35,385 nt of DNA from contig RZYW01000011.1 of assembly GCA_009930175.1 (NCBI GenBank), positions 1-35,385 of the forward strand, read 5' to 3'. A model generated the notes under the pieces. It was not told the DNA's origin. It worked only from the letters and a program-made list of their open reading frames with translations, and did no database searches. Within the stretch, counting starts at the first letter, position 1, and each line of letters begins with the position of its first letter. This document shows positions 25,466 to 30,765 of this stretch, piece after piece. A program made the position numbers and the translations under genes. This DNA is from Clostridia bacterium (GTDB lineage Bacteria > Bacillota > Peptococcia > Peptococcales > SKKY01).

Positions 25466-26728
25466 TTGTCAGATAATGAAGCTGTTATTCCATTTTCAGA
25501 GAACTTTTCTAAGGTGTTCGCCCAAATTTGCATACCCTTTGCATATTTTAAAAGGGATTGTGATAAGTCCTGTGGTTTTGAAAATTTTAATCTGGAAAGA
25601 TGTAATAATGCTTTTGCAATGCTTTTTAATAAAACCTGTGATGAAATAATAGGAAACAATATAAAGGATATTTTCCCAGAAGACTATAATTCACTAAGAA
25701 CTTTTTTAATTCATTCTCAAAATTTAAATGGGGATAATTGCCTTGAAAGTGAATTCTATTTTAGTAAAAGGAATTATTTATTAACTGTATTATCCCCTGA
25801 TTCAAATGATTTTGTAATTCTTTTTAATGATGTAAGCAGTATAGTAAAAGTAAATGAAACCTATATTAAACATAAGCTTTTATTTGAAAGTGCGAAAGAT
25901 ATACTTATTTACGTAAAAGAAAAAGGTAGAATAATAGAGGCTAATTCATCAGCATGTGCTGCCTATGGATATACTCCTGAAGAGATGACTAAATTAACTA
26001 TTCATGATATTCGTCATCCCTCGGAAAGGGATGTATTTGATGAACAAATGGAAATGGCTGACAGTGGTGGTGTTTTCTTCGAGGCTGTTCATATAAGAAA
26101 AGACGGCTCATCTTTTCCTGTAGAAGTTAGTTCAAAGGGGACTTTTATTAATAATGAATTAATCAGAATTCATGTTATAAGAGATATAAGTGAAAGAAAA
26201 GAAGCTGAGGAAAGAATACTTTTTTTAGCGAATAATGATCCCCTTACAAAATTGTCAAACAGACGTCATATTATTGAAGAATTAAATAAACTAATTAAAA
26301 TTTCTAATAAAAACCATAGCAAGTTCGCATTACTTTTCTTCGATATTGATAAATTTAAGATATATAACGATAAATATGGTCACGATGCAGGGGACTTCGT
26401 ATTAAAAACTATTGCAAAAAAAATAAAACAGGTAATAGATAAAAATGATTTTGCGGGACGTTTTGGCGGAGATGAATTTGTAATTGTTAGAAAAAATATT
26501 AATGATAAAAATGATATCCAGGATCTAGTAAAAAAACTATTTAATTCTATTAATGAACCATTTAATTATAAGGAACATCAATTAAATGTAAAAATCAGTC
26601 TGGGTATAAGTATTTTCCTTCAGGACAGTAACGAACTTGATGACTTAATAAATAAAGCAGATTCTGCAATGTATTCTGCTAAAGAATTTACAGATAATAG
26701 TTTTAAATTTTATAATGAATTATATTAA
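25466..26728 (+). CDS. PAS-GGDEF diguanylate cyclase
   Basis: The 420-residue protein starts at TTG behind AAAGGAGAG. An N-terminal PAS-like region (CNNAFAMLFNKTCDEIIGNN) is followed by a typical PAS with PAC tail (IEANSSACAAYGYTPEEM to IRDISERKEAEER) at about residues 130-250. The C-terminal GGDEF domain has NDPLTKLSNRR, FFDIDKFKIYNDKYGHDAGD and an intact GRFGGDEF. It should make cyclic di-GMP in response to an unknown signal. The product-inhibition RxxD site is absent (DKND in that place). No membrane segment is seen, so it is cytoplasmic. Confidence 0.9.
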   Translation: MSDNEAVIPFSENFSKVFAQICIPFAYFKRDCDKSCGFENFNLERCNNAFAMLFNKTCDEIIGNNIKDIFPEDYNSLRTFLIHSQNLNGDNCLESEFYFSKRNYLLTVLSPDSNDFVILFNDVSSIVKVNETYIKHKLLFESAKDILIYVKEKGRIIEANSSACAAYGYTPEEMTKLTIHDIRHPSERDVFDEQMEMADSGGVFFEAVHIRKDGSSFPVEVSSKGTFINNELIRIHVIRDISERKEAEERILFLANNDPLTKLSNRRHIIEELNKLIKISNKNHSKFALLFFDIDKFKIYNDKYGHDAGDFVLKTIAKKIKQVIDKNDFAGRFGGDEFVIVRKNINDKNDIQDLVKKLFNSINEPFNYKEHQLNVKISLGISIFLQDSNELDDLINKADSAMYSAKEFTDNSFKFYNELY

Positions 26729-26751
26729 AAGTCCCTAAAAGGGGCTTTTTT
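26727..26751 (+). terminator. Terminator after the diguanylate cyclase gene
   Basis: AAAAGTCCC (26727-26735) pairs with GGGGCTTTT (26741-26749) with one G-U pair and a TAAAA loop, and the T-run continues to 26751. It ends 4 bases before the LexA-type box. Confidence 0.85.
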
Positions 26752-26755
26752 AATG

Positions 26756-26769
26756 CGAACAAATGTTTG
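26756..26769 (+). promoter_or_regulatory. LexA (SOS) box in front of the radical SAM operon
   Basis: CGAACAAATGTTTG matches the published B. subtilis LexA consensus CGAACRNRYGTTYG at every position. It abuts the -10 box TATAAT (26770-26775), so bound LexA would occupy the core promoter. The box is directly upstream of a gene annotated in its family as DNA modification/repair, which makes a chance match less likely. Confidence 0.8.
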
Positions 26770-26775
26770 TATAAT
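26770..26775 (+). promoter_or_regulatory. -10 box of the SOS-type operon
   Basis: A perfect TATAAT directly follows the LexA-type box. The matching -35 region falls in the T-tract of the preceding terminator (around 26747) and is weak. The predicted start is near 26782, giving a leader of about 49 bases to the ATG at 26831. Confidence 0.6.
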
Positions 26776-26830: not shown

Positions 26831-28075
26831 ATGGAAACAGTAAAAAAAATGGCAATTCTTGCCGACAGTGCAAAATATGATGTTTCATGCTCCTCAAGCG
26901 GAAGTAACAGAAAAAATTCTGGTGGTGTGGGGAATGGGGCACTTAGCGGTATTTGCCATAGCTGGAGTGAAGATGGAAGATGTATTTCTCTTTTAAAAAC
27001 ATTATATACAAACAACTGTGTTTATGACTGTGCTTATTGCATTAACAGGATAAGCAATGATATACCAAGAGCTTCTTTTACCCCTAGAGAACTGGCAGAT
27101 TTAACAATAGATTTTTACAGAAGGAATTATATTGAAGGCTTATTCTTAAGCTCTGGAGTATATCCAAATCCAGATAAGACTATGGAAAACCTAATTGAAA
27201 CTATGGAAATATTAAGAAAAGAATATAAATTTTTTGGATATATTCATGTAAAAGCAATTCCTGGGGCAGACCCACTGTTAATAAATAAGGCAGGTATGCT
27301 GGCAGATAGAATGAGCGTAAATATTGAATTACCCAGTGAAAAGAGCCTTCGTTTACTTGCGCCGCAAAAAAGCAAAGAGAAAATTTTCAAACCTATGGCA
27401 CAAATAACCCAAGGGCTGATGCAAATTGGGGAGGAGAAAGGAAAATATCGATTTTCACAAAAATTTGTGCCTGCGGGACAAAGCACGCAGATGATTGTTG
27501 GAGCTACAAATGATACGGACTTAAGTATAATTAGCCTCTCCCAGGGGTTGTACGATAACTTTAAATTAAAAAGAGTGTACTATTCTGCCTATGTTCCGGT
27601 AAATGAAGGGCCTAATTTACCAGCTTTAATTCAGGCACCTCCAATGAAAAGAGAAAACAGACTATACCAGGCAGACTGGTTATTAAGATTTTATGGTTTC
27701 AAAGCCAGTGAATTACTTGACCAGGATAATCAAAATTTTGATATGGATCTTGACCCAAAATGTGACTGGGCAATAAGACACTTTGATTTTTTTCCAGTAG
27801 AAATTAACAAAGCTTCATATAATGAAATACTTAGAGTTCCTGGAATTGGAGTAAAATCAGCAAAAAAAATTATCAAAATGAGAAAGTTTGGGAAAATTGA
27901 TTTTCTGGGATTAAAAAAGCTGGGAGTTGTTTTAAAACGAGCGAAATATTTTATTACCTGTAATGGCAGATACTCAGAGGGTTTATACATTTACCCGGAA
28001 AATTTGAGAAACAGACTTATTCAAAAAAAACCTGCAGATATGCAAATTAAAATTTTTCAGGAGTCAGGATTATGA
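26831..28075 (+). CDS. Radical SAM protein, putative DNA modification/repair family (TIGR03916-like)
   Basis: The 414-residue protein has the radical SAM cluster motif CVYDCAYC (CxxxCxxC) near residue 60 and an N-terminal Ser/Gly/Cys-rich segment. Helix-hairpin-helix repeats at the C-terminus (LRVPGIGVKSAKKIIKMRK) are typical of DNA-binding proteins. It matches my knowledge of the family named putative DNA modification/repair radical SAM protein. The ATG at 26831 is chosen over TTG 26825 because AAGGAAGG is eight bases ahead of it. Its stop overlaps the DUF4130 partner gene (ATGA). The chemistry is unknown; the SOS-type box upstream supports a role in DNA damage. Confidence 0.85.
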   Translation: METVKKMAILADSAKYDVSCSSSGSNRKNSGGVGNGALSGICHSWSEDGRCISLLKTLYTNNCVYDCAYCINRISNDIPRASFTPRELADLTIDFYRRNYIEGLFLSSGVYPNPDKTMENLIETMEILRKEYKFFGYIHVKAIPGADPLLINKAGMLADRMSVNIELPSEKSLRLLAPQKSKEKIFKPMAQITQGLMQIGEEKGKYRFSQKFVPAGQSTQMIVGATNDTDLSIISLSQGLYDNFKLKRVYYSAYVPVNEGPNLPALIQAPPMKRENRLYQADWLLRFYGFKASELLDQDNQNFDMDLDPKCDWAIRHFDFFPVEINKASYNEILRVPGIGVKSAKKIIKMRKFGKIDFLGLKKLGVVLKRAKYFITCNGRYSEGLYIYPENLRNRLIQKKPADMQIKIFQESGL

Positions 28076-28824
28076 AAATATTAGTCTACGAAAATACTTT
28101 TCAAGGTTTCTTAACTGCAATTTACGAAGCTTTTTATTCACTTGAAAAACCAGCTAAAATTATAAGTAAATTTGATTATTTAAGAGACTTTCAGTTACAA
28201 TTAGATACAGAAGTTGTGGAAATATCTGTTAATCAGGAAAAGGCAGATAAAGTTTATAATGCGGTTTTAAAAAAAATTTCTACAGGCACACTAAGTAATC
28301 TTTATTATCTTTTTTTATCTTCAGATTTCGATAAAGGAATTCTGGCATTTTATTATTTAAAATTTGCTTTTAAAAAAGGGAAATACACAGATAATTATTT
28401 AGTGGATGAAAATGTTAAGCCAGTTCATGATATAGTATGGAAAGTAAAACAAGAAAAACACCGCATGAAAGGTTTGCTTCGATTCAAACTTCTGGACAAT
28501 GGTATATATTACGCGGCTTTTGAACCAGATCATGATATTACCGAACTAATTGCACCTCATTTTTCAAGAAGATTGGGAGATCAGTTTTGGATAATTCACG
28601 ATTTAAAAAGACTAAAAGCTGCTTTATATAACAAAGAGGAATGGATTATATCTGATCTAACAGAAAAAGAACTTCCACCATTAAGTGCAAAAGAAATAGA
28701 AATTCAGGAAATATGGAAGAAATATTTTAAACACATTTCAATAAAAGAAAGAAAAAATAATAAACTTCAAAAATCATTTATGCCAGTAAGATATTGGAAG
28801 CATTTAGTTGAAAAAGAGGAATAA
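28072..28824 (+). CDS. DUF4130/TIGR03915-like DNA metabolism protein, partner of the radical SAM protein
   Basis: The 250-residue protein has the family start YENTFQGFLTAIYEAFY and the later motifs HRMKGLLRFK, YYAAFEPDHDI and PHFSRRLGDQFWIIHDLKR. In the known family this protein is encoded next to the radical SAM partner and, in some bacteria, is fused to a uracil-DNA-glycosylase-like domain; no such fusion exists here. It is coupled to the radical SAM gene by a 4-base overlap. The biochemical activity is unknown. Confidence 0.82.
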   Translation: MKILVYENTFQGFLTAIYEAFYSLEKPAKIISKFDYLRDFQLQLDTEVVEISVNQEKADKVYNAVLKKISTGTLSNLYYLFLSSDFDKGILAFYYLKFAFKKGKYTDNYLVDENVKPVHDIVWKVKQEKHRMKGLLRFKLLDNGIYYAAFEPDHDITELIAPHFSRRLGDQFWIIHDLKRLKAALYNKEEWIISDLTEKELPPLSAKEIEIQEIWKKYFKHISIKERKNNKLQKSFMPVRYWKHLVEKEE

Positions 28825-28826
28825 TA

Positions 28827-29462
28827 ATGATAGAAAAGTATTATACGATAAATGAATATGGTGAATCGGAATTAATTATTCAAAAATCAAGGTTTATTGG
28901 ATATGCAAAAAGGGTTGAATCTGAAAAGGAAGCTCAAGATTTTATTCATTCAATTAAAAAAAAACATTATGATGCTACTCATAATTGCTCCGCTTATTTA
29001 ATTGGAGATCATGATGAAATTCAGAAAGCTAATGATGATGGTGAACCAGGAGGGACAGCGGGAGTTCCAATTCTTGAAGTTATAAAAAAGAAGGATTTAA
29101 AATATACAGTAATTGTTGTAACAAGGTATTTTGGTGGGATTAAGCTGGGAGCAGGGGGGCTGATAAGAGCATATTCTGCAGCTGCTTCGCAGGTAATAGA
29201 AGAAACTGGTAAAATTGAAAAAAAACTAGTTCAAGAATTTTTAGTTAAAATTGAATATACTTTTTTAGGTAAAATTCAAAATGATATAAATGAAACTGAT
29301 TTTATTTTAGATAAAATTTATTTTGAAAATCTTGTAACTTTAAGTATAATGGTTGATGTTGGAAAAGAAGAGGGTTTTAAATCATGGATAATTAATCTCA
29401 CCAGCAATCAAGCCTTAATAAAAGAAAAAGATAAATTATACTTGGAGGTTATAAAAAAATGA
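28827..29462 (+). CDS. yigZ: YigZ/IMPACT family protein
   Basis: The 211-residue protein has the IMPACT N-terminal domain, with KSRFIGYAKRVE, DATHNCSAYLIG, DDGEPGGTAGVPILE and YFGGIKLGAGGLIRAYS, and the smaller C-terminal domain that often accompanies it. Such proteins are linked to translation control in eukaryotes; the bacterial role is poorly defined. It begins 2 bases after the DUF4130 gene and overlaps the transporter gene by 4 bases, so it belongs to the same operon. Confidence 0.9.
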   Translation: MIEKYYTINEYGESELIIQKSRFIGYAKRVESEKEAQDFIHSIKKKHYDATHNCSAYLIGDHDEIQKANDDGEPGGTAGVPILEVIKKKDLKYTVIVVTRYFGGIKLGAGGLIRAYSAAASQVIEETGKIEKKLVQEFLVKIEYTFLGKIQNDINETDFILDKIYFENLVTLSIMVDVGKEEGFKSWIINLTSNQALIKEKDKLYLEVIKK

Positions 29463-30694
29463 AAAAATTAAGATTAACTACAAAAATATTTTTAGGCTTA
29501 ATCCTTGGTATTATCACAGGTTTTTTATTACAGGGAAATTTGGATTTGGCAAATACTTTCATTAAGCCTTTTGGTACGCTTTTTTTAAACTTAATTAAAA
29601 TGGTTATCGTGCCATTGGTTTTCTCTTCATTAATTGTTGGAACAGTAAGTATTGGAGATCCTAAAACTCTTGGGAGAATTGGGGGTAAAACTTTAAGCTA
29701 CTATCTTGTAACTACAGCAATTGCAGTATTTATAGGTTTATCATTATCTTACATTTTTTCACCAGGAACTGGTTTAACATTACCTGTTGACGCTGTTCAG
29801 GAACCTGCTAAAGCTCCATCAATAACGGATACTGTTTTAAATATTTTCCCAAGTAATCCACTAAAAGGGTTGGTTGATGGCAATATTTTACAAGTAATTA
29901 CCTTCGCTTTATTTTTAGGTTTGGGTGCAACAGCTCTTCCAAAGGGTATGGCAGATCCATTCACAAATTTTTTTAAAAGTTTAGCTGAAATTATGTATAA
30001 AATCACTGCATTTATTATGACTCTGGCTCCATATGGTGTTTTTGCTTTAATCGTCCCTGTTGTAGCTCAATATGGGTTAGATGTTCTTTTACCACTAATT
30101 AAAGTAATTGGGGTCGTTTACCTGGGTTGTATAATCCACGCAATAGCAGCATATTCTGTTACTGCAAAGGTGTTTGCCGGAATATCTCCTTTAAAGTTCT
30201 TTAAAGGTATTGCTCCAGCTGCAATTACAGCTTTTAGTACCACAAGCTCTGCAGGAACTTTACCTGTTACGATTAGATCAGTAAGAGAAAACCTTGGGGT
30301 TTCAGAAAAAATTTCATCCTTTGTCCTTCCCTTAGGTGCAACTATAAATATGGATGGAACAGCTTTATACCAAGGTGTTTGCGCACTGTTCCTCGCACAG
30401 GTTTATGGAATTGACCTTACTGGAGCTCAAATGTTTACAATAATTCTTACAGCAACCCTGGGATCTATAGGAACTGCAGGTGTCCCGGGAGCAGGATTTA
30501 TAATGCTTACTTTAGTTTTGCAATCAGTTGGGCTGCCTTTAGAAGGTTTGGTTCTTATTGCAGGAATTGATCGTATTCTTGATATGGCAAGAACTGCTGT
30601 AAATGTTGTGGGAGATGCAGCTTGTTCAATTTTTGTTGCTGCAAGCGAAAAAGAAATAGATTATGATATAGCTCAAGGGGAAGTACAGTTTTAA
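29459..30694 (+). CDS. Dicarboxylate/amino acid:cation symporter (DAACS family)
   Basis: The 411-residue membrane protein has the DAACS core: a serine-rich hairpin (AFSTTSSAGTLPVTIRSV), the cation/substrate motif NMDGTALYQG, GTAGVPGAGFIM, and DRILDMARTAVNVVGD. It takes up glutamate, aspartate or C4-dicarboxylates with H+ or Na+. The substrate could serve Kor (glutamate to 2-oxoglutarate) or the C4 branch encoded elsewhere in the window. It is the last gene of the SOS-type operon, coupled to yigZ by ATGA, and is followed by a terminator. The substrate is not decidable from sequence alone. Confidence 0.88.
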   Translation: MKKLRLTTKIFLGLILGIITGFLLQGNLDLANTFIKPFGTLFLNLIKMVIVPLVFSSLIVGTVSIGDPKTLGRIGGKTLSYYLVTTAIAVFIGLSLSYIFSPGTGLTLPVDAVQEPAKAPSITDTVLNIFPSNPLKGLVDGNILQVITFALFLGLGATALPKGMADPFTNFFKSLAEIMYKITAFIMTLAPYGVFALIVPVVAQYGLDVLLPLIKVIGVVYLGCIIHAIAAYSVTAKVFAGISPLKFFKGIAPAAITAFSTTSSAGTLPVTIRSVRENLGVSEKISSFVLPLGATINMDGTALYQGVCALFLAQVYGIDLTGAQMFTIILTATLGSIGTAGVPGAGFIMLTLVLQSVGLPLEGLVLIAGIDRILDMARTAVNVVGDAACSIFVAASEKEIDYDIAQGEVQF

Positions 30695-30733: not shown

Positions 30734-30765
30734 TCCGGTCTTACTAAGGCCGGATTATTTTATTT
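30734..30765 (+). terminator. Terminator after the DAACS symporter gene
   Basis: TCCGGTCTT (30734-30742) and AAGGCCGGA (30746-30754) form a 9-bp stem with one G-U pair and an ACT loop, followed by TTATTTTATTT. Confidence 0.75.

Follow-up and report, generated by a model that had tools for sequence, protein, structure and literature searches.

The radical SAM/DUF4130 operon of the window, by which we mean the whole stretch of 35,385 nucleotides analysed here, is very probably repressed by LexA and induced in the SOS response, and would encode a DNA repair or damage-tolerance module that is probably tethered to the sliding clamp. LexA control, as read by the earlier note, is strongly supported by sequence comparison: lexA is present in the source genome, the motif is found at other SOS promoters, promoters of orthologues carry the box, and proteobacterial orthologues carry LexA-type sites. 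Such control is not new, and the operon appears to be a well-supported further instance of a prediction made in 2013 for CAC3343-CAC3344 of Clostridium acetobutylicum, the same kind of pair, predicted as a LexA operon and unlisted in RegPrecise (PMC3828012). In comparison with that pair, the present analysis concerns another lineage and adds controls around 80 orthologues, proteobacterial sites and a clamp motif, and the window operon additionally has yigZ and symporter genes. The new point relative to prior work is an apparent beta-clamp-type motif in the tails of about 90% of the radical SAM orthologues.

The box CGAACAAATGTTTG lies at 26756-26769 of the forward strand and, by pattern match, has no mismatches to the Gram-positive LexA consensus CGAACRNRYGTTYG. 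It is followed with no gap by the -10 element TATAAT (26770-26775, forward strand), so the claim of an exact match touching TATAAT is borne out, and it occupies the spacer between this element and a weak -35 located within the T run of a hairpin. This hairpin (26727-26749, forward strand; -11.6 kcal/mol, z -2.68) is rho-independent terminator-like and ends the upstream diguanylate cyclase (GGDEF) gene; it was recognized from folding and sequence and is absent from the list of the terminator pattern scan. Because it stops just before the box, the SOS promoter is probably independent of the GGDEF gene. The exact pattern CGAACRNRYGTTYG has two sites over both strands of the 1,792,188-bp draft genome, and the reversed pattern has none. 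Sites with up to two mismatches are at chance level in the window (3, against 2.08 expected), where the box is the sole exact match. A strong promoter-like match, TTTACA-18-TATAAT (11/12), was also seen at 26687-26716, inside the 3' end of the GGDEF gene and just upstream of the terminator-like hairpin.

Downstream of the box, translation of the first gene most likely starts at the ATG at 26831. The gene (26831-28075, forward strand) encodes a radical SAM protein of 414 aa with helix-hairpin-helix (HhH) sequences, scoring 651.4 bits against TIGR03916 (cut-off, 343.5), and the second (28072-28824, forward strand) a protein of 250 aa that scores 165.7 bits against Pfam DUF4130 and 243.2 bits against TIGR03915 (cut-off, 112.25). 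These scores show that both genes had been correctly assigned. The stop of the first and the start of the second overlap by ATGA. The pair had been taken for the entire operon, which probably does not hold, since the transcription unit likely comprises four genes: a YigZ/IMPACT family gene (28827-29462; TIGR00257, 211.6 bits) and a sodium:dicarboxylate symporter (SDF) gene (29459-30694; Pfam SDF, 454 bits) follow on the same strand, joined by overlaps or gaps of 2 nt. A terminator-like hairpin at 30734-30754 (forward strand), after the symporter gene, likely closes the unit; it comes from a pattern scan of the sequence, the hits of which do not exceed chance expectation in this region. In the set of 80 radical SAM loci, the DUF4130 gene is downstream of the radical SAM gene in 77, mostly directly, and no yigZ or symporter gene adjoins the pair in the other loci, save a yigZ fragment in locus L036. 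We rejected yigZ and the symporter gene as members of the conserved unit because of this absence; they are probably local passengers of the operon.

The earlier note had proposed looking for lexA and scanning promoters with its motif. The lexA gene was found by profile search (232.8 bits), and its product combines a LexA DNA-binding domain with an S24 peptidase domain; the linker contains an Ala-Gly, GDSM holds the active-site serine, and the lysine is present further downstream. The genome also has recA (584.5 bits). The motif is found upstream of lexA, recA and the gene for a Y-family polymerase: the divergent lexA/LysM intergenic region contains the near-boxes CGAACATACATTCT, CGAACACACATTCT and CGAATATTTGTTTG, the box upstream of recA is CGAACATACTTTCT, and the polymerase gene has AGAACACATGTTCT at 53 bp from its start. 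The last of these is palindromic (C26:9566-9579) and separates the polymerase gene from a divergent one that at its start resembles tryptophan synthase beta chain. No box was found in the 300 bp upstream of uvrB that were read, and the regulon thus falls short of the complete textbook set.

A pattern fitted to this organism occurred with no mismatches in six places, namely recA, two at lexA, the window operon, contig C153 and one inside an ORF; since the sites at lexA and recA had contributed to it, their recovery is not independent. At one mismatch, genome-wide, it was no commoner than the reversed control. Bare GAACN4GTTY was uninformative across the genome, with 94 matches against 98 for its reversed control. 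Among the inspected hits (up to one mismatch to the fitted motif, or the GAACN4GTTY core), those clearly in promoters were at lexA/LysM, recA, the Y-family polymerase gene, the window operon and one gene at a contig end, and nearly all the others were inside ORFs.

Conservation of the box was evaluated upstream of 80 radical SAM loci taken from the genome_contigs collection, mostly from Firmicutes, by taking the best site within 250 bp, with 483 upstream regions of other long ORFs of the same loci as controls. A box with up to two mismatches was present in 56 of the 80 promoters (70%) against 16 of the 483 controls (3.3%), confirming that the same box occurs at orthologous operons; the rate was 5.5% in shuffles, and the reversed motif was found in 1 of 80. 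With up to one mismatch, the numbers were 33/80 and 1/483. About 30% of the 80 orthologues had no good box within 250 bp upstream, including loci labelled Geotalea, Chlorobiaceae, Pontibacter, Endomicrobium and Synergistaceae. A perfect TATAAT was near the box in 27 of 53 boxed promoters, and the box lay on the -10 or to either side of it. Within the same order, 11 of 21 genomes (the source genome included) have a TIGR03916 gene over the cut-off. Most promoters of the nearest relatives have a box running into the -10, as in CGAACAGATGTTTTATTAT and CGAACAAATGTTTTATGAT, and promoters of the relatives often have a second, degenerate box downstream.

The operators of alpha- and betaproteobacterial LexA are of the types GAAC-N7-GAAC and CTGT-N8-ACAG, respectively. 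All seven alphaproteobacterial orthologues have GAAC-N7-GAAC or GTTC-N7-GTTC within 250 bp, for which the chance is about 0.6% per region, and both betaproteobacterial (Caballeronia) orthologues have CTGT-N8-ACAG. These clade-specific sites suggest that the regulation was kept while the operator sequence changed. None of the operator patterns tried was present at one Acinetobacter locus; Acinetobacter is a genus not known to have LexA. The plasmid-borne proteobacterial orthologues precede a DUF4130-UdgX fusion (TIGR03915 plus TIGR03914). Matches in the phage collection comprised eight fecal Bacteriophage sp. records, all but one shorter than 20 kb. A record named "Acinetobacter phage" (L158; CAKLQH020000003.1), of 240 kb, has glyS, glyQ and aidB and looks like a bacterial chromosome. 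Carriage of the operon by phages is weakly supported by short fecal records and this host-like Acinetobacter record, and we did not retain it.

In the radical SAM protein, the Pfam Radical_SAM match is just below threshold (28.6 against 29.5 bits), and a C-terminal HhH segment is matched by HHH_3 (E 3.7e-7). The region encoded at 26948-27040 (forward strand) contains C42-H43, C51 and then the CxxxCxxC 4Fe-4S motif C63, C67 and C70, and all six residues are invariant in an alignment of 40 sequences. The best Foldseek matches of the AlphaFold2 model (pLDDT 87.9) are the radical SAM barrels of HydE, BioB and ThiH. Spore photoproduct lyase (SplB) shares the radical SAM superfamily and is SOS-regulated in several species (PMC8565304), whereas the window protein belongs to a different family by profile. 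SplB was matched neither in the Pfam or NCBIfam scans nor among the top 50 PDB fold matches listed, and an SplB identity is thus unsupported.

The C-terminal tail of this protein, variable in length and sequence among orthologues, carries the candidate beta-clamp-binding pentapeptide QIKIF (aa 405-409; 28043-28057, forward strand). Orthologues mostly have QLSLF at this point, the commonest form (38 of 91 proteins), and in the 40-sequence alignment Q405 is invariant and F409 nearly so. The pattern Q[LIMVT]x[LIMVF][FW] is present in 72 of 80 tails (about 90%), against 1 expected in shuffled tails, and a stricter form of the pentapeptide in 68 of 80, against 0.17 expected. The alpha- and betaproteobacterial orthologues end in QLSLF, QLSLL, QLALF, QLSLI or QLQLL. 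The published beta-clamp-binding consensus is QL[S/D]LF (PMC12309361), and such motifs are usually C-terminal (PMC4549789). In a literature search for radical SAM enzymes and the sliding clamp, the sole radical SAM paper among the matches listed dealt with an antibiotic targeting DnaN, and none of those listed described the tail motif. The window QIKIF keeps the Q and the F and departs from the consensus at positions 2-4, which makes clamp docking less sure in the source organism. The AlphaFold2 model leaves the tail unplaced (mean pLDDT 41-43 in the last blocks). A comparable clamp-type sequence, QTNLF, is present in the Y-family polymerase encoded by this genome.

The DUF4130 partner has been predicted to be a mutagenesis-related enzyme that goes together with UDGs and with radical SAM proteins resembling SplB (PMC3765255). 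In 48 sequences, R137, R167, D177, N229 and E247 are invariant. Sequence searches of solved structures gave no DUF4130 relative, and the fold search with the AlphaFold2 model (pLDDT 94.9) gave a partial match only, to DHH-type phosphoesterases (8a8k, E 8.2e-5, TM 0.41). DUF4130 may be distantly related to the DHH/RecJ-like fold, a possibility that serves as a lead only. RecJ and RecJ2 are among the partial fold matches, with low TM-scores. Proteobacterial partners carry a fused UdgX-family domain (TIGR03914), whereas the window protein, with its 250 aa, has no UDG domain: no UDG-superfamily domain was found in it by the Pfam and NCBIfam scans, which gave DUF4130 alone. The physiological role of UdgX has been described as largely unknown (PMC10359453).

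A related arrangement is known from other phyla. The operon in question joins COG1573 to COG4277, and we take the latter to be the radical SAM-HhH family of the window. For this UDG operon, SOS control has been inferred in Bacteroidetes, with Verrucomicrobia and Alphaproteobacteria also cited (PMC8565304). It probably contains the same radical SAM-HhH protein with a uracil-DNA glycosylase as partner, under LexA, whereas the window has DUF4130 without a UDG, and a canonical Gram-positive LexA box.

The box and its conservation, the pairing of the two genes, the UdgX fusion and the tail motif are visible in the sequences themselves. The scheme that we infer from there runs from LexA repression and damage induction to action on DNA, clamp docking and radical chemistry on a base lesion. 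LexA bound to the operator between the -35 and the -10 would block RNA polymerase. When DNA is damaged, RecA is loaded on single-stranded DNA and LexA then cleaves itself. To judge from the conserved sites and from SOS biology, cleavage would allow the radical SAM-HhH enzyme and its DUF4130 partner to be made. The enzyme would probably contact DNA via its HhH segment and probably dock on the beta sliding clamp via the C-terminal QLSLF-type motif (here QIKIF), which would place its action at or behind replication forks. There, it would apply 5'-deoxyadenosyl-radical chemistry to a base that is damaged or modified, DUF4130 being its constant partner. The DUF4130-UdgX fusion in Proteobacteria suggests a substrate in the general vicinity of uracil, abasic or other damaged-pyrimidine sites.

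The proposal of LexA control has to be weighed against the possibility that the box is fortuitous, or serves a different repressor, in an operon without SOS control. The frequencies of looser sites agree with such a view, as those with up to two mismatches are at chance level in the window and the genome-wide GAACN4GTTY counts match the reversed control. The exact match, however, is rare (two genome-wide) and sits on a promoter, a box accompanies 70% of the orthologues against 3.3% of the control regions, and the Proteobacteria substitute clade-specific LexA-type sites; we regard a box unconnected with SOS as highly improbable. If the operon is indeed SOS-controlled, its products could still modify DNA, RNA or protein for an end other than repair, such as defence against phages or the signalling of damage. 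Genes without a repair role can occur in SOS regulons, the closest folds are the cofactor-type enzymes HydE, BioB and ThiH, and there is no SplB among the 50 listed matches. Against this, the HhH segment, the clamp motif and the joining of DUF4130 to UdgX, a uracil-DNA protein, all indicate DNA at replication forks, and a non-repair function seems unlikely to us.

A narrower doubt concerns the tail, which might contact DUF4130 or another partner instead of the clamp. This would suit a window sequence that is off consensus and a tail that the model does not place, but QLSLF matches QL[S/D]LF, the motif lies in a variable, poorly ordered tail and often forms its last residues, as clamp motifs do, and the similar QTNLF is found in the genome's Y-family polymerase. 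A tail devoted to some other contact is, in our estimation, improbable. The preferred reading, of a LexA-controlled module probably tethered to the clamp, can be extended to a specific function, in which the SOS-induced, clamp-docked radical SAM enzyme processes a base lesion at the fork together with DUF4130, in a widespread repair or tolerance pathway that has stayed under LexA even as operators turned over. For this extension we see the chances as evenly balanced. LexA control across several lineages with different LexA motifs would mean that the operon answers DNA damage, and the clamp-docking tail, if true, would say where the radical SAM enzyme acts. Together they would turn a conserved, uncharacterised pair into a testable repair or damage-tolerance pathway linked to UdgX.

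The second exact box of the source genome, CAAACGTACGTTCG (contig C153:6561-6574), also directly abuts a TATAAT. The gene behind it starts MIKETRKRTEKVFE, and only about its first 14 codons lie on the contig. When 25 relatives were searched at the DNA level, nothing but the gene itself came back. Judging from its promoter, it is probably another SOS gene.
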